From Halobellus limi (GTDB lineage: Archaea; Halobacteriota; Halobacteria; Halobacteriales; Haloferacaceae), in NCBI RefSeq assembly GCF_004799685.1, contig NZ_CP031311.1:682001-746000 (forward strand): 64,000 bases of DNA. Direction: 5' to 3'. This document shows, one piece after another, positions 27,211 through 34,002 of the stretch. Both the position numbers and the translations under genes were made by a program. The first letter of the stretch is position 1, and every line of letters starts with the position of its first letter. The notes beneath the pieces are model-generated. The model was not told the DNA's origin, ran no database searches, and saw only the letters and a program-made list of their open reading frames with translations.

Positions 27211-27284
27211 GGGCCAATAGCTCAGTCAGGTTGAGCGCTCGGCTGATAACCGGGAGGTCCACGGTTCAAATCCGTGTTGGCCCA
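27211..27284 (+). tRNA. tRNA-Ile (anticodon GAT)
   Basis: The acceptor arms GGGCCAA (27211-27217) and TTGGCCC (27277-27283) pair fully, with discriminator A at 27284. The anticodon stem CTCGG/CCGGG encloses CTGATAA, so the anticodon is GAT (Ile). The T-loop GGTTCAAATCC is canonical. The 3' CCA is not encoded. A TTAAAC box lies upstream near 27172, and CTACTC/GAGTAG arms flank the 5' leader. Confidence 0.95.
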
Positions 27285-27486
27285 CCTCCTTCCCTGCCGG
27301 CTTCCGGCCGGCGGGGAACTGGGGCCGCAACTCCCCAGCCACCTAACTTCGTGCGATACCCGAAACCGAGAGAGACTTCCCTCTTCGACCCGGCAAACCC
27401 CGACTTCCTCTCTTCGGTTTCTCGGCTCTGAGCGCGGGGAGCAGTTGTCGGACCAGACGCGTCTCCCTCGCGACGAGAAGCCGTCA

Positions 27487-28896
27487 TCAGCCGGAAGCAG
27501 AGTGCGTACCGGACAGCAGCGAGGCCGCCTCGAAGTCCATATCGAGTCGCTCTTCGACGCCGAGCAGCTCCGCGATCGTCGGCGCCACGGCCCGCGCGTC
27601 GACTGGTCCGTCGAGCGTCCCTCGGTCCGGGGCGGCGGGACCGCCGAGTCCGTACACCCCCAGCGTCTCCTCGTCAACGCGCCCGTGGGATCCCCCGACC
27701 CGCGTCGGATCGAGCGAGGTCAGTCCGTCGTCGCCGAAGAAGAGTTCGCAGGGATCGAAGCCGGGCTTGGCGTGGATGTCCATATCCGCGGCGTACGACG
27801 GAGCCGTCTCGCGGGTGTCCCACCAGTAATACTGGAACCAGGCGTCGGGTTCGGCGACCAGCACGAGGTCGCCCGCGTTCGGGTGGTCGATATCGCGGGC
27901 CGCCTTTCCGCTGTCGTCAAGCACCTCGGCGACGCCGTCGAGCGTTTCGAGCGTCTCGCTGGCGTCGGCGAGCACTCCCGAATCGGCGTACACGTGCGCG
28001 ATCTGGTGGTCGACCATCGCGAAGGCGGACGAGCGCGAGAGATCGACCTCCTCGCCGCCGCGGCCGTCGTCGGTCATCGAGAGCAGTCCCACCTCCCAGA
28101 GCGCGCGGTTGGGGAACGCGGGCGCGTCGACGGAGTGGAAGCCGTACTCGCTGACGACGTTCACGACCGTCTCCTCCCAGCGCTCGCCCCCGCGGAGGAA
28201 CGACAGGAACGATCCGAGGAGTTCGTCGACGGCTTCGAGTGCCGCGTCGGTTTCCGGCGCGTCGGGGCCGTGTCGCTGCGCGTCGTAGTCGAGGTGGGGG
28301 ACGTACACCCAGAGCAGGTCCGGGTCGTACCGTTCGATCGCCTCGCGGGCGGCGGTCAGAATCCACTCGCTGCTTCCCTCGTCGGCCGCCGGCCCCCAGT
28401 AGCTGTGCAGTGGGAAGTGACCGTGTTCGGCCTCCAGCTCGTCGTAGAACCCGTCGGGATTGGTCCAGCAGTCCATCTCGAGGAGGTTGTTCTCCTCGTC
28501 CTCGATCGGCGAGGGCGTCACCGCGACGTCGGCGGTCGTCCCGACGAGGTGCTGGAAGAACAGCACGCCGGAGGTGAGACCGGCGTCGGCGGCGGCCTCC
28601 CAGACGCGAGTGCGGTCGCCTCGGTCCCGCTCCCAGAAGGCCACCGCGTCGGCGTCGCGGTCGTACTCGCCGTTCGCCACGTCGCCGTGGGCCGCCGGCG
28701 AGCATCCGGTCGCCAGCGTGGTCTGCGCCGGAACCGTGACGGCGGGGAACGGCGGCCGGAGGTCGGCCGTCGTCCCCTGGCTCAGTAACTCGGTCAGGTT
28801 CGGCGTGCGGCCGTCGACGAGATGGTCGCGCTGGAGGCCGACGACGTCCAGGACGACGACGCGCCGGGCCGCGGTTGGCCCGCCGGACGCGGTCAT
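27487..28896 (-). CDS. Alkaline phosphatase superfamily phosphodiesterase (EboF-like)
   Basis: A 469-aa member of the type I phosphodiesterase/nucleotide pyrophosphatase family. The nucleophile region is PAVTVPAQTTLATGCSPAAHG (Thr within TVPAQTT, about residue 53), with metal-site segments VVLDVVG and YVPHLDYDAQRHGPD. Where the family usually has SDHGM, this protein reads SEYGFHS. The start overlaps the stop of the inositol-phosphate synthase gene (ATGA), so the two form an operon. Context fits EboF of the Ebo-type cluster; its substrate is unknown, perhaps a phosphorylated cyclitol or sugar. Confidence 0.86.
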   Translation of the reverse strand: MTASGGPTAARRVVVLDVVGLQRDHLVDGRTPNLTELLSQGTTADLRPPFPAVTVPAQTTLATGCSPAAHGDVANGEYDRDADAVAFWERDRGDRTRVWEAAADAGLTSGVLFFQHLVGTTADVAVTPSPIEDEENNLLEMDCWTNPDGFYDELEAEHGHFPLHSYWGPAADEGSSEWILTAAREAIERYDPDLLWVYVPHLDYDAQRHGPDAPETDAALEAVDELLGSFLSFLRGGERWEETVVNVVSEYGFHSVDAPAFPNRALWEVGLLSMTDDGRGGEEVDLSRSSAFAMVDHQIAHVYADSGVLADASETLETLDGVAEVLDDSGKAARDIDHPNAGDLVLVAEPDAWFQYYWWDTRETAPSYAADMDIHAKPGFDPCELFFGDDGLTSLDPTRVGGSHGRVDEETLGVYGLGGPAAPDRGTLDGPVDARAVAPTIAELLGVEERLDMDFEAASLLSGTHSASG

Positions 28897-30101
28897 TCGA
28901 CGGCGGCCTCCCTCGCGTGCCGGTCGACGTACTCGTCCAGCAGCGCGAACTGCCGGGAGAGGTCGTGTTCGTCGACGCCGAGCGGAGCCTTGAAGAACGA
29001 CGCGAGATGGCGCTGGAGGCCCCCCTCGCCGCGCTCGTCGGCGTGAGCGAGCAGACGCACCAGATCTAGCACGAGCGGAGCGGCGAGCGCCGAGTCCGAG
29101 CCCTCCCAGGTGAACTGCATCGTCATCTCGGTGTTCAGAAAGCCCTCGAAGTGGACGTAATCCCACGCGGTCTTCCAGTCGCCCAGCGACGGCGTGTAGT
29201 CGATTCGGACCCGGTTGTGTTCGAGACCGGGCAGGATGGAGTCGAGCACGCCTCCCTTACTCGCCAGTTTCCCGGCCTTGTTGGCCTCGTCTTCGAGGAC
29301 CCGGCCGTCGTCGTTGCCGAGGATGTTGTGGCCCTCCCACGAGCGCACGCGGAGGTTCCGACCGGCGAACATCGGTGCGAGCGCCGACTTGACGAGCGTC
29401 TCACCCGTCTTGGCGTCTCGGCCCGTGTGCGGGACGTCCCGGTCGTCAGCGAGTTCCCGGAGGCCGCCGAGCGCCGAGCCGGTACTCGGCGTGAAGTTCA
29501 GGTACGGGTGCTCGTCGACGAGCGCGGCGTACGCGTAGAGCGCGCTCGCCGGGAGGTCGCGGTCGTCGGCGGCGATCGCCCGCTCGAACGCGTCGATCGT
29601 GTCGTACCGGCCCGAGTCGTCCAGCGGGGGTTCGGTCGAGGCGACGTTCACCACCACCACGCGATCGAGGCCGTGCTCCCGGCGGAACGCCCGGTAGTCG
29701 TCTCGGATGCGCTCGACGACCTCGTCCACGGAAAGCCGGTCGTCGAGGGGCCCCTCATCGGCGAGATCGTCGACCGCCGCTCCGCAGTTCATCGCCGTTC
29801 CCGTCTCTATCCGCCGGTCGATGCGACGGAGGTCTTCGGCCACCGCGTCGACGGTTTCCGGACTCGGGACACCGCTCGAAGAGAGGTCCCGCGCCGTCTC
29901 CAGGAGGCTCTTCTCCCGGATATCGTGGCCGCCGAAGACGAGTTCCTCGACGTCGGGGAGGGCCAGCCGGGAGTACGGTTCCCGCGCCGTCACCAGGCCC
30001 GTCGTGTCCGTTTCTCCGCGGGCCAGTGCGCGCGCTCCCGCGATCGCAGTGGTCGCGACGTTTCCGCGAGCGCCGATCAACCAGACTCCTGTGCTTGTCA
30101 T
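28893..30101 (-). CDS. myo-Inositol-1-phosphate synthase family protein
   Basis: A 402-aa protein with N-terminal NAD-binding VWLIGARGNVATTAIAG (about residues 5-21). Family motifs include VVVVNVASTEPP, YLNFTPSTG, the active-site-like GRDAKTGETLVKSALAP and NILGNDDGR. MIPS converts glucose-6-phosphate to 1L-myo-inositol-1-phosphate by an NAD-dependent aldol cyclisation. It is the likely cyclitol source for the cluster. In many bacterial Ebo operons the cyclase (EboD) is instead a dehydroquinate-synthase-like protein. The ATG at 30101 was chosen because MTSTGVWLIGARGN starts the fold. Confidence 0.9.
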   Translation of the reverse strand: MTSTGVWLIGARGNVATTAIAGARALARGETDTTGLVTAREPYSRLALPDVEELVFGGHDIREKSLLETARDLSSSGVPSPETVDAVAEDLRRIDRRIETGTAMNCGAAVDDLADEGPLDDRLSVDEVVERIRDDYRAFRREHGLDRVVVVNVASTEPPLDDSGRYDTIDAFERAIAADDRDLPASALYAYAALVDEHPYLNFTPSTGSALGGLRELADDRDVPHTGRDAKTGETLVKSALAPMFAGRNLRVRSWEGHNILGNDDGRVLEDEANKAGKLASKGGVLDSILPGLEHNRVRIDYTPSLGDWKTAWDYVHFEGFLNTEMTMQFTWEGSDSALAAPLVLDLVRLLAHADERGEGGLQRHLASFFKAPLGVDEHDLSRQFALLDEYVDRHAREAAVE

Positions 30102-30323
30102 AGGCGTGAGCGTCTCTTGTCGAACTATCCACATTGTTATGCCACGTCTGACCGGGACGGTCGGCTGTTACACGACGCCTGAATGGGATTGACACACTGA
30201 GAAGCCGGGTGGCGATCAAACCCTTCCGAGCGCTCGGTACGGCCCTTCCTGTTGCAGTGGTACGTTTCGAGGTCAGCCGAAGGAGGCCCATAACGAAGTA
30301 CGAACTGATTGACACGTAATCCG
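30102..30323. promoter_or_regulatory. Divergent promoter region of the Ebo-like cluster
   Basis: This 222-bp gap separates the minus-strand pair (MIPS, phosphodiesterase) from the plus-strand genes starting with the TatD hydrolase. An AT-rich ATTGTTAT near 30132-30141 could be the minus-strand TATA and CATAACGAAG near 30290 the plus-strand one. No ORF was recognised. Shared control of the two arms is inferred from the arrangement. Confidence 0.4.
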
Positions 30324-31124
30324 ATGCGTATAATCGACCCCCATATGCATATGGTGTCGCGCTCGAGCGAGGACTACCGGCGTGCCCGACGCGCGGGAAT
30401 CGAGTGCTGTATCGAACCGGCGTTCTGGAGCGGGACCGACAAACAACACGCGGGCTCGTTCTTCGATTACTTCGAACACATCACCGACTTCGAGACCGAA
30501 CGCGCCGAGCGCGCGGCCGGGATGGACCACTACGTCACCATCGGGCTCGAACCCAAAGAGGCGAACTACCCGGAGATGGCCGAGAAAGTGATGGAGCGCA
30601 TCCCCGAGTACCTCGACCGCGAGAACGTGGTCGGCGTCGGCGAGATCGGTCTCGATCAGGGGACCGAAGCCGAGGAGTACGCGTTCCGCAGGCAGCTCCG
30701 GATGGCCGAGGAGCGCGAGCTCCCCGTCATCGTCCACACGCCCCACGAGAACAAACCGGAGGGGACCGAGCGGCTCGTCGAGATGATCCGGGAGGAGGAC
30801 GTCACCGAGGAGCGAATCGTCATCGACCACAACACGGAACACACCATCGACACCAGCCTGCAGACGGATTGCTGGGTCGGCTTCACCCTCTACCCCGGCA
30901 AGATCGAGGACGAGAAGGCCATCGACTTACTCGAGGAGTACGGCACCGACAAGATGATTCTCAACAGCGCGGCCGACTGGGACCCCTCGAACCCCCTGGC
31001 GGTGCCGATGGCCCGGGACAAGATGATCGACCGCGGCTGGGACCGCGAGGAGGTCCGAAAGGTCGTCTTCGAGAACCCCTACGAGTTCTTCGACCAGTCG
31101 CCGAACTTCGACTACGAGCCCTGA
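30324..31124 (+). CDS. TatD-related metal-dependent hydrolase (EboB-like)
   Basis: A 266-aa amidohydrolase-fold protein. Metal ligands are visible: PHMHM at residues 6-10, GEIGLD near 112, IVHTPHENKP near 150, VIDHNTEH near 175 and the late Asp in NSAADWDPSNP. TatD enzymes are nucleases or hydrolases; the Ebo homologue's substrate is not known. It starts the plus-strand arm of the cluster and lies 6 nt before the isomerase gene. The ATG at 30324 was chosen because an upstream TTG adds only five residues. Confidence 0.88.
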   Translation: MRIIDPHMHMVSRSSEDYRRARRAGIECCIEPAFWSGTDKQHAGSFFDYFEHITDFETERAERAAGMDHYVTIGLEPKEANYPEMAEKVMERIPEYLDRENVVGVGEIGLDQGTEAEEYAFRRQLRMAEERELPVIVHTPHENKPEGTERLVEMIREEDVTEERIVIDHNTEHTIDTSLQTDCWVGFTLYPGKIEDEKAIDLLEEYGTDKMILNSAADWDPSNPLAVPMARDKMIDRGWDREEVRKVVFENPYEFFDQSPNFDYEP

Positions 31125-31130
31125 GTGCCT

Positions 31131-31958
31131 ATGCGATTCGCCTTCTCAGCCAACGCGTTCCAGGAGTACGACCCGGTCGAGACCGTCGAGATCCTGGCCG
31201 ACGTCGGGTACGACGGGGTGGAACTGCTGTTCGGCGCGTCGCACCTCCACCCGGCCGACACCGACGAGGACGACGTCGCCGCGGTCGAGAACGCCCTCGA
31301 CGACGCCGGCCTCGAAATCAGCAACTGCAACGCGTTCATGGTGACCGCGGAGGACTTCCAGCACCCCTCCTACGTCGAGACCGATCCCGGGTACCGCCAG
31401 CAGCGCCTCGACTACACCCGCGAGTGCCTCCGCCTGGCCGACGCGTTCGGGGCCGACTCCATCTCCGTCCAGCCGGGGGGCCCCATTCCCGAGGGGAAGT
31501 CCCGCGAGTGGGCGATGGAGACGTTCGCGGAGGGGATGCGGTCGATCGCACAGACCGCAGAAGACCTGGACGTCGACCTGTTGATCGAACCCGAGCCGGA
31601 CCTGCTGATCGAGACGACCGATCAGTACCTCGACATCGACGGCCGGATCGACTCCGGGGCCGTCGGCTGCAACTTCGACGCGGGGCACCTCTTCTGCGTC
31701 GGCGAGGACCCCGCCGAGGCCGTCGGACGGCTCGCCGACCACACGCCCCACTACCACCTCGAGGACATCCCGGCCGACCGCACGCACGAACACACCCAGT
31801 TGGGCGACGGCGCGATGGACATCGACGGATTTCTCGAGGCGGTCGAGGCGACGGGCCACGAGGGGCTCGTCACCGTCGAGCTGTACCCGTATCAGGAGAC
31901 CGCCGAGGAGACGGCCCGCGAGGCGTACGAGTACCTCGAAGAGCACGGGTGGGCCTGA
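31131..31958 (+). CDS. Sugar phosphate isomerase/epimerase-like TIM barrel (EboE-like), copy 1
   Basis: A 275-aa xylose-isomerase-like TIM barrel. Metal-site segments visible are LIEPEPDLLIET (about 150), CNFDAGHLF (about 181), YHLEDIP and a terminal VTVELYPYQ. Such proteins isomerise or epimerise sugars or cyclitols. It lies 6 nt after the TatD gene and 7 nt before the UbiA gene. It is similar in layout to 33024-33872; a duplication is likely. A GTG at 31125 would add two residues. Confidence 0.88.
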   Translation: MRFAFSANAFQEYDPVETVEILADVGYDGVELLFGASHLHPADTDEDDVAAVENALDDAGLEISNCNAFMVTAEDFQHPSYVETDPGYRQQRLDYTRECLRLADAFGADSISVQPGGPIPEGKSREWAMETFAEGMRSIAQTAEDLDVDLLIEPEPDLLIETTDQYLDIDGRIDSGAVGCNFDAGHLFCVGEDPAEAVGRLADHTPHYHLEDIPADRTHEHTQLGDGAMDIDGFLEAVEATGHEGLVTVELYPYQETAEETAREAYEYLEEHGWA

Positions 31959-31965
31959 TCGAGCG

Positions 31966-32904
31966 ATGACTCACTCCCGACGCGGTACAGTCCGCGTGCG
32001 ACGCACCACGGCGGCGTACGCCGAGTTAGTTCGCGTCCCGAACCTCTTTACCGCACCGCCGGACGTGATAGCCGGAGCGGCGCTCGCCGTCGCCGCGGGT
32101 GGCGCAGTCGCGCTCCCTGCCGTCGCCGGCGTGGGCGCCGCGTCCGTACTGCTCTACGCCGCCGGTACGGCGCTCAACGACTTTTTCGACGCGCCCGTCG
32201 ACGCCGAGGAACGCCCGGAGCGACCGATCCCCACCGGTCGGGTGTCGCGCCCGGCCGCCGGCGCTCTCGGAGCCGCGTTACTGCTCTGTGCCGTGCTCCT
32301 CGCGGCCGCAGTCGCCGGAACCGATGCCGGCATCGGCGCGGCCGCGGTCGCGGCGGCGGTCGTCGCGTACGACGGCGCTCTGAAGGGCGGCCCGGCGGGC
32401 TTCCTGGCGATGGGCGCGGCGCGCGGACTGAACGTCCTGCTCGGGACGACGGCCACCGATATCTCGGTCGCGTCTCTCCCGCCGTGGGCCCTCGGTGTAC
32501 CGATCGCGGTCGCCGCGTACGTCGCGGGGGTGACGCTGGCGGCCGCCGACGAGGCGAGCGGCGCGGCCCGGCGGTCGGTGGTCGTCGCGGGCGGCGCCGC
32601 CGGCGTCGCCGGGGCCGCCGCGGTGACGCTCCTCGCGACCGTCGGCTTCACCGTCCGCCCGCTCGCCGCGGGCGTCGGCGTCGCACTCGCTGTCGGGTTT
32701 CTCGCCGTGACGGGACGAGCGCTCGCGCGGGCCTACCGCGACCCGTCGCCGGAGACGATCGGTCCGGTCATCGGAACGTGCGTGCTCGCGCTCGTCGTCC
32801 TCGATGCGGCCGTCGCGGCCGTCGCCGGCCTCGGGTGGACGCTGGTCACCGTCGCATTCCTCGGCCCCGCGGTCGGACTGGCGCGACTGTTCGAAGTCTC
32901 GTAA
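31966..32904 (+). CDS. UbiA-family prenyltransferase (EboC/SCO3242-like)
   Basis: A 312-aa membrane protein with about eight or nine helices. The first Asp-rich prenyl-diphosphate motif is NDFFDAPVD (about residues 64-72), and the second region is YDGALKGGPAGFLAMGAARGLNVLLG. That second segment, with its MG-R-LN-LLG pattern, resembles EboC/SCO3242 proteins more than archaeol-synthesis enzymes. It would attach a prenyl chain to the product of the cluster. It is co-directional with the TatD and isomerase genes. Confidence 0.87.
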   Translation: MTHSRRGTVRVRRTTAAYAELVRVPNLFTAPPDVIAGAALAVAAGGAVALPAVAGVGAASVLLYAAGTALNDFFDAPVDAEERPERPIPTGRVSRPAAGALGAALLLCAVLLAAAVAGTDAGIGAAAVAAAVVAYDGALKGGPAGFLAMGAARGLNVLLGTTATDISVASLPPWALGVPIAVAAYVAGVTLAAADEASGAARRSVVVAGGAAGVAGAAAVTLLATVGFTVRPLAAGVGVALAVGFLAVTGRALARAYRDPSPETIGPVIGTCVLALVVLDAAVAAVAGLGWTLVTVAFLGPAVGLARLFEVS

Positions 32905-33023
32905 TTTGGTGACACCACGATGAACCTGAGACACTCGATTTACCGAACCGGATCCGACCCGACGACGTCGCACCGACTCCCCGTGGCGGCCGATCCTTTC
33001 AGCAGGCTCGGGGGTGAGCGGTG

Positions 33024-33872
33024 ATGGTCGAGTTGGCCTTCTCCACGAACGCCTACACCGAGTACGCGCTCCCGGAGGCGGTTCGCCGCATCGGCGCTCA
33101 CGGCTACGACGGCGTCGAACTACTCGGCGACGAGCCCCACGCCTACTTCCCGACGTTCGGCGACGACGACGAGCGCGCGCTGTGCGACGCCCTCGCGGAG
33201 GCCGGGCTGTCGGTGTCGAACGTCAACGCGAACACGGCGATGGGTTACTACGACGACGCGCCGCCCTCGGCGTTCTTCGAGCCGAGCGTCGTCACCGACG
33301 ACGACGAGGCCCGCGAGTGGCGCGTCGAGTACACGAAGCGCGCCGTCGACCTCGCCGAGACGGTGGGGTCGCCCGCGGTCTGTCTCGCGACCGGACGACC
33401 CCTCGCGGGGAACCCGCCGGAACGCGCCCGGGAGCACCTCCGCGCGTCGCTCCACGAGATTCTCGACTACGCGGAGCCGCGGGGCATCGACGTCGGCATC
33501 GAGTTCGAACCGGAACTGCTCGTCGAGTGCACCGACGAGGTGTTGGCCCTGATACACGAGATCGGCCGCGAGTCGCTGGGCGTCAACCTCGACGTCGGGC
33601 ACGCGGCCGTGTACGGAGAGGACCTCACGGAGACCATCCACCGGAGCGCGGGCCACATCACCGGCGTACACCTGGAGGACATCGTCGGCGGCCGTCGGGG
33701 CAAGCACTACCACCGGATCCCCGGCGAGGGCGACCTCGACTTCCGGACCGTCTTCGACGCGCTGGACGACGTCGGCTACGACGGGTTCGTCACCCTGGAG
33801 CTGTACACGTATTCGCACGACCCCGATCGGGCCGCCGACCGTGCGTACGAGGAACTGACACAGTACTGCTGA
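33024..33872 (+). CDS. Sugar phosphate isomerase/epimerase-like TIM barrel, copy 2
   Basis: A 282-aa xylose-isomerase-like TIM barrel with the same landmarks as copy 1: IEFEPELLVE, NLDVGHAAVYGE, VHLEDIVGG and a late VTLELYTY. It starts 119 bp after the UbiA gene, so it may have its own promoter or share read-through. Two paralogues suggest successive isomerisation steps or different substrates. A GTG at 33021 is an alternative start that adds one residue. Confidence 0.87.
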   Translation: MVELAFSTNAYTEYALPEAVRRIGAHGYDGVELLGDEPHAYFPTFGDDDERALCDALAEAGLSVSNVNANTAMGYYDDAPPSAFFEPSVVTDDDEAREWRVEYTKRAVDLAETVGSPAVCLATGRPLAGNPPERAREHLRASLHEILDYAEPRGIDVGIEFEPELLVECTDEVLALIHEIGRESLGVNLDVGHAAVYGEDLTETIHRSAGHITGVHLEDIVGGRRGKHYHRIPGEGDLDFRTVFDALDDVGYDGFVTLELYTYSHDPDRAADRAYEELTQYC

Positions 33873-34002
33873 TACTGTCGGCTGTCGTTTCAGAGCTTCG
33901 CGGTCCGGGGTCGCACTACGTCGCGGGCGCACAGCCGACGGGACGAGGAGCGACCCGAGGGCGACTGTGCCGTCCGGCACACCAGTTGGCCGCTCCGGGG
34001 TT

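Follow-up and report, generated by a model that had tools for sequence, protein, structure and literature searches.

What does a haloarchaeon make with an inositol-phosphate synthase that is encoded among relatives of the bacterial ebo proteins? The question is raised by a stretch of Halobellus limi DNA (64,000 nucleotides of contig NZ_CP031311.1, positions 682,001 to 746,000; hereafter the window), in which six genes at 27487-33872 form two divergent arms. A phosphodiesterase (PDE) and a myo-inositol-1-phosphate synthase (MIPS) lie on the minus strand, and a TatD-family hydrolase, a TIM barrel (TIM1), a UbiA prenyltransferase and a second TIM barrel (TIM2) lie on the plus strand (Table 1). 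The MIPS gene and the start of the PDE gene share 4 bp (28893-28896). A first-pass annotation of the window had named these six genes and their arrangement; both were confirmed, and the Pfam matches of all six proteins exceed the family cut-offs. The protein comparisons make it very likely that the block is related to ebo clusters. Judged by its gene content, it is an archaeal variant without detected EboA, EboD and EboE, not a strict canonical ebo cluster, and this variant is new. A search of the open-access literature (most subscription journals and bioRxiv lay outside it) turned up no publication describing an ebo cluster in an archaeon or the replacement of EboD by MIPS. We somewhat favor reading the block as a MIPS-type ebo cluster in haloarchaeal form that would make a membrane-anchored prenyl-cyclitol for transport or processing outside the cytoplasm.

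Table 1. Features of the conserved block in window coordinates.
Feature	Position	Strand	Basis
Phosphodiesterase (PDE), alkaline-phosphatase superfamily, EboF-like	27487..28896	-	PF01663 180.5 bits; residue counts; paralogue control
Myo-inositol-1-phosphate synthase (MIPS)	28893..30101	-	PF07994/PF01658 168/115 bits; A. fulgidus Ino1 match
Divergent intergenic region, 222 bp	30102..30323	.	Presumed promoter region of both arms
TatD-family metal-dependent hydrolase, EboB-like	30324..31124	+	PF01026 74 bits; EboB-type identity; shared residues
TIM1, xylose-isomerase-like TIM barrel	31131..31958	+	PF01261 (143 and 144 bits for TIM1/TIM2); EPEP..E motif common with EboE
UbiA-superfamily prenyltransferase, EboC/SCO3242 type	31966..32904	+	PF01040 74.5 bits; NCBIfam scores; tree; motifs
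TIM2, second xylose-isomerase-like TIM barrel	33024..33872	+	PF01261; 36% identity with TIM1
Whole conserved block, sharp edges between species of the genus	27468..33880	.	blastn against two same-genus loci

The exact gene order, which the first-pass annotation had proposed to check across haloarchaea, is kept in 37 of 52 distinct haloarchaeal loci (MIPS being only a fragment in 2 of the 37). Of the other 15, some run into contig or stretch ends, some have another arrangement, and some lack MIPS, PDE or TIM2. This count started from 60 haloarchaeal loci from all sources, from which two duplicates and identical UbiA were removed. Because a simple open reading frame (ORF) rule set the gene ends in the locus comparisons, the lengths of gaps should be taken as approximate. 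Of the 41 loci with PDE next to MIPS in this order, 32 have the two genes overlapping. Among 147 related genomes, orthologous UbiA (E < 1e-60) was found in 18, weaker matches being paralogues, and TatD (E < 1e-100) in exactly the same 18. MIPS is present in these 18 (as a 75-residue fragment in one) and in one more; because only 19 of the 147 genomes have it, MIPS is mostly set in this cluster in these genomes. PDE was found in 17 of the 18 and at full length in none of the other genomes; the exceptions are G121, with only a distant PDE, and G138, with a fragment. Co-occurrence with UbiA gave Fisher p values of ~1e-21 to 1e-23 for the 147 genomes, which are related and so not independent. In blastn comparisons, one same-genus genome matches from 27468 to 33880 with 91% identity, and matching resumes ~1 kb downstream; the other matches over 27509-33872 with 87% identity, and neither flank matches within the 13 kb compared. 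The six genes belong to large families and might be a chance neighborhood of unrelated metabolic genes. However, this explanation is rejected by the conserved order, the co-occurrence and the sharp block edges, and its probability is practically nil.

Residues that are common to bacterial ebo proteins link the block to ebo. The UbiA protein has NDxxDxxxD as its donor motif. We compared it with an outgroup of 11 haloarchaeal paralogues that resemble digeranylgeranylglyceryl phosphate synthase (DGGGPS), an identity that is itself inferred. R153 is present in all haloarchaeal (51/51), MIPS-type (6/6), ebo (38/38) and other (9/9) rows and in none of the DGGGPS-like rows (0/11). The second acidic motif is a single Glu (Glu196) in 103 of 104 cluster-type rows, with Gln in one ebo row, and Glu-Glu-Asp in the outgroup. 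For the residue counts, identical proteins were merged and proteins of at most 75% of the median length were left out. In a tree of 19 of the 51 haloarchaeal and 13 of the 38 ebo rows, the haloarchaeal proteins form one clade (98/97), which is joined with five MIPS-type proteins (97/86). The Rokubacteria protein is unplaced, canonical EboC has a clade of its own (100/99; 12 of the 13 rows), and a 100/100 branch separates cluster UbiA from the 11 paralogues.

In the PDE, residues 249-252 read SEYG and residues 296-301 read DHQxxH. Glu250 and Tyr251 are kept in 47/47 haloarchaeal, 6/6 MIPS-type and 26/27 ebo rows, and DHQxxH in 47/47, 6/6 and 26/27 (one gap), respectively. The solved relative 2gsn has SDHG at the SEYG position; we take the altered positions to be metal ligands, as in the NPP family. 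When PF01663 proteins of 13 genomes were scanned for these patterns, 26 loci were listed, and SEYG together with DHQxxH occurred only in three cluster PDEs. The other 23 listed loci have [SG]DHG (21), GEHG (one) or GEYA (one). A separate EboF-like PDE nearer the bacterial type (L211, G121:C2:36324-37469) is encoded in a haloarchaeon without the haloarchaeal-type PDE.

The TatD protein is ~43% identical to EboB-type proteins versus 23-28% to generic TatD, and it shares S12, R13, D17, Y18, H141 and D168 with EboB-type rows. Its closest solved relative is the uncharacterized AF_1765. A TatD tree with a generic outgroup was set aside as unreliable because of long branches (33 of 90 rows; the PDE tree had 30 of 82, both being chosen subsets). 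The EPEP..E motif occurs in EboE (34/37), TIM1 (51/51), TIM2 (36/51), bacterial MIPS-type TIM (3/6) and planctomycete TIM (2/8) proteins. It is missing in seven other PF01261 proteins (L139, L143, L052 and its duplicate L058, L095, and L253 and L256 of the window's genome).

These data bear on a more ordinary explanation, in which the block would be for sugar or cyclitol salvage, with MIPS supplying inositol for the usual inositol-headed polar lipids and UbiA being a spare archaeal-lipid prenyltransferase. The TIM barrels resemble sugar epimerases, inositol-derived head groups in haloarchaeal polar lipids are described in an extract of PMC8305020, and one Halomarina MIPS adjoins a glycosyltransferase outside this cluster. 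A placement of UbiA on the DGGGPS side is also not rejected by the approximately unbiased (AU) tests. However, MIPS is nearly absent from relatives without the cluster, the EboF-, EboB- and EboC-type residues are common to bacterial ebo proteins, and UbiA differs from every outgroup row (11/11) at R153. We therefore regard salvage as quite unlikely. For UbiA itself, an ordinary archaeal-lipid function is disfavored by the motifs and the tree, the AU tests not being decisive.

MIPS-bearing clusters were found in haloarchaea, actinobacteria, Rokubacteria, gemmatimonads and planctomycetes. The Rokubacteria operon (L098) encodes, in one direction, MIPS, UbiA, TIM, EboA (121.5 bits, over the cut-off), TatD, EboE (390.6 bits, over the cut-off) and PDE, and the same order is found in Nonomuraea, in Embleya and, as annotated by NCBI, on two Streptomyces plasmids. 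Gemmatirosa (L143) has TatD, PDE, UbiA, MIPS and TIM, with EboE on the opposite strand. The first-pass annotation had pointed to an inositol-phosphate synthase in actinobacterial SCO3242-type clusters, and this was correct for Streptomyces, Nonomuraea and Embleya; in a table of PMC3610822, the entry next to SCO3242 is the myo-inositol phosphate synthase SCO3243. An EboD-like cyclase stands in place of MIPS in Azospirillum, Aureibacter, Deinococcus, Mycetohabitans, Salipiger, Ketogulonicigenium and many Opitutae. A Nitrososphaera-labelled metagenome contig (L095) has an EboC-like UbiA gene followed by an EboF-like PDE gene.

The call of an ebo-like cluster holds but must be narrowed to a variant, since EboD and EboE, like EboA, were not found. 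The missing EboA-like gene, pointed out in the first-pass annotation, agrees with 0 of 147 relatives matching the EboA model, a count to be read with the equal silence of the control genomes; the model does match Rokubacteria L098. Against the EboE model (NF035939, cut-off 250), TIM1 scores 28.9 and TIM2 22.4 bits, and none of the 147 genomes has a match at E 1e-10, the controls being silent too; the two TIM barrels take the place of EboE in the block. No EboD sugar-phosphate cyclase was found among the six proteins with Pfam and NCBIfam, and MIPS is present instead. Of the features that define canonical ebo, the EboB-type TatD and the EboF-type PDE are in the cluster; of those that define the SCO3242 type, MIPS is there, the NF045897 score falls short, and EboA and EboE were not found.

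Two proposals for bacterial ebo guide the functional reading: that EboD makes a cyclitol which is prenylated by EboC (PMC5133447), and that ebo genes are tied to moving the scytonemin precursor to the periplasm, for which a cyclitol-lipid carrier was suggested (extract of PMC6282210, Klicki et al.). In the haloarchaeal block, MIPS would stand in for EboD and convert glucose-6-phosphate to a myo-inositol phosphate. We infer every later step. The TIM barrels and TatD may isomerize, dehydrate or hydrolyze the cyclitol, and UbiA, in the membrane, would join a C20 prenyl group to an acceptor derived from the cyclitol. Geranylgeranyl diphosphate is the usual haloarchaeal prenyl donor. The PDE may act on an intermediate, phosphorylated or carrying a prenyl diphosphate, that the two ebo types have in common: because EboF accompanies both EboD and MIPS, its substrate is probably shared and not simply inositol phosphate. 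A prenyl-cyclitol anchored in the membrane would result, and it would help to transport or process some metabolite outside the cytoplasm. We give a prenylated cyclitol as the product an even chance, and consider a role in export or at the envelope possible and rather doubtful.

Several observations weigh against this reading. UbiA scores 169.1 bits with NF035940 (EboC, cut-off 250) and 167.3 bits with NF045897 (SCO3242 family, cut-off 260), below both curated cut-offs; the EboC cut-off is also missed (83.3 bits) by a UbiA from Opitutae whose operon encodes EboE together with an EboD-like cyclase. The AU tests reject no alternative placement of haloarchaeal UbiA (with DGGGPS-like proteins, p 0.232; canonical EboC, 0.186; all six MIPS-type proteins, 0.152). 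The UbiA phylogeny that had been offered as a test of the ebo relation thus points toward the MIPS-bearing EboC/SCO3242 proteins and away from the DGGGPS-like ones by its branches, and is left provisional by the AU tests. In the PDE tree, the haloarchaeal proteins have a deep clade to themselves (100/100), not joined to the MIPS-type bacterial PDEs, which mix with ebo PDEs. In the MIPS tree (48 of 55 rows), haloarchaeal cluster and non-cluster MIPS are intermingled, apart from the actinobacterial group; given this mixture, the clusters may have taken up an ordinary archaeal MIPS, perhaps more than once. Finally, intact MIPS is absent from six cluster-bearing haloarchaeal genomes. In a search of ten cluster genomes, hand-picked mostly for a locus without MIPS, it was intact or nearly so in four, an N-terminal fragment of ~45-76 residues in three (one with a stop) and missing in three. 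MIPS is therefore not indispensable everywhere. Where it is missing, the prenyltransferase could use imported inositol, or the inositol source may not be MIPS. The three loci with such fragments (L053, L080 and L064) retain the adjoining PDE.

The six genomes that retain the cluster without intact MIPS speak for another reading, in which the block would be ebo-related with an acceptor that is not inositol-derived, MIPS being accessory and UbiA prenylating another, perhaps aromatic, metabolite. According to an extract of PMC9235831, Ubi-297 prenylates 8-HQA, and this EboC-type enzyme, the sole tested one that we found, took quinoline-like aromatic acceptors. However, MIPS recurs in the clusters of all five groups named above, and its overlap with PDE is usual. 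Such an acceptor is in our opinion unlikely, less so than salvage, and the prenyl-cyclitol reading is retained.

The cluster behaves as a movable unit, because orthologous UbiA is present in only 3 of 17 Halobellus genomes (the window's included) and the cluster is found on plasmid records of Halocatena, Natronococcus, Halobaculum and Haladaptatus. In a sample of 392 genomes from across the phylum, close TatD orthologues (at least 79% identity) occur in 6, which all belong to the window's order; other matches are 25-38% identical. In a survey of named genomes, 84 loci were confirmed and 80 kept; Haloferax gibbonsii, H. prahovense and Halorubrum saccharovorum are among the carriers. A UbiA relative was found in 0 of 20 candidate viral stretches. 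A tRNA-Ile gene lies at window positions 27211-27286, ~200 bp from the PDE end. It was rejected as a general integration site: the two same-genus loci have no tRNA, and ARAGORN gave a match in only 3 of 22 loci. One genome (G143; contigs C1, C26, C8 and C9) apparently has two whole-cluster copies, split at contig ends.

A GSDH-type sugar dehydrogenase adjoins 15 of 42 examined haloarchaeal loci (L055, L056, L060-L062, L065, L069, L071, L087, L057, L059, L063, L075, L049 and L050), 13 by BLAST grouping and two by NCBI annotation, with Pfam run on three. Several of these proteins have twin-arginine-like leaders, and some have copper-binding domains. Mean GSDH matches are 4.9 in cluster genomes versus 1.4 in others (matches, not genes, with kinship uncorrected), and the excess after a linear fit with genome size is 3.4. 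As a strict cluster partner GSDH was rejected, since 134 of 147 genomes have it whether or not they carry the cluster, and only the number differs; none is among the adjacent ORFs read beside the window's own cluster. It is conceivable, and very unlikely, that the cluster product, an inositol-derived membrane molecule with a geranylgeranyl group, acts outside the cell for secreted redox enzymes (GSDH-type sugar dehydrogenases and copper proteins) as a lipid that shuttles electrons or loads cofactors, and that this would be the general ebo role instead of pigment export. A multicopper oxidase is encoded near the Haloferax loci L077-L079 and near L063. Elsewhere in the window's genome (G000:C1, ~1571131-1577382, outside the window), one open frame of 3637 residues contains two GSDH domains, and G008 has a similar frame of 3705 residues.

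The haloarchaeal cluster offers an archaeal way into the widespread ebo pathway. With it, only EboB, EboC, EboF and a TIM barrel are left as the common core, which should make it easier to test what ebo makes, and MIPS, an enzyme of known chemistry, in place of the cyclase predicts an inositol-derived head group. MIPS matches Archaeoglobus fulgidus Ino1 (1u1i) over its full length (293 bits), catalytic residues included: eight Ino1 positions, which we take to be active-site residues, are kept. Digeranylgeranylglyceryl phosphate synthase (6m31) resembles cluster UbiA in family and donor motif, whereas the haloarchaeal DGGGPS-like paralogues differ from cluster UbiA at the second acidic motif and R153. 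Canonical ebo clusters (eboABCDEF and the eboG variant) share with the haloarchaeal one the EboB-, EboC- and EboF-type proteins and an EPEP-motif TIM barrel; they have EboD where it has MIPS, and their EboA and EboE have no detected counterpart in it. The bacterial MIPS-type clusters have EboE, a detected EboA in all but Gemmatirosa, and mostly co-directional genes, whereas in the haloarchaeal cluster EboA and EboE were not found, the TIM barrels are two and the arms are usually divergent. The actinobacterial SCO3242-type clusters, such as those of Streptomyces sp. NBC_00376 and S. camelliae, and the clusters of Rokubacteria L098 and Gemmatirosa L143 share with haloarchaea the combination of MIPS, an EboC/SCO3242-type UbiA, a PF01261 TIM barrel, TatD and an EboF-type PDE, and the UbiA of five of the six bacterial MIPS-type clusters groups with haloarchaeal UbiA.

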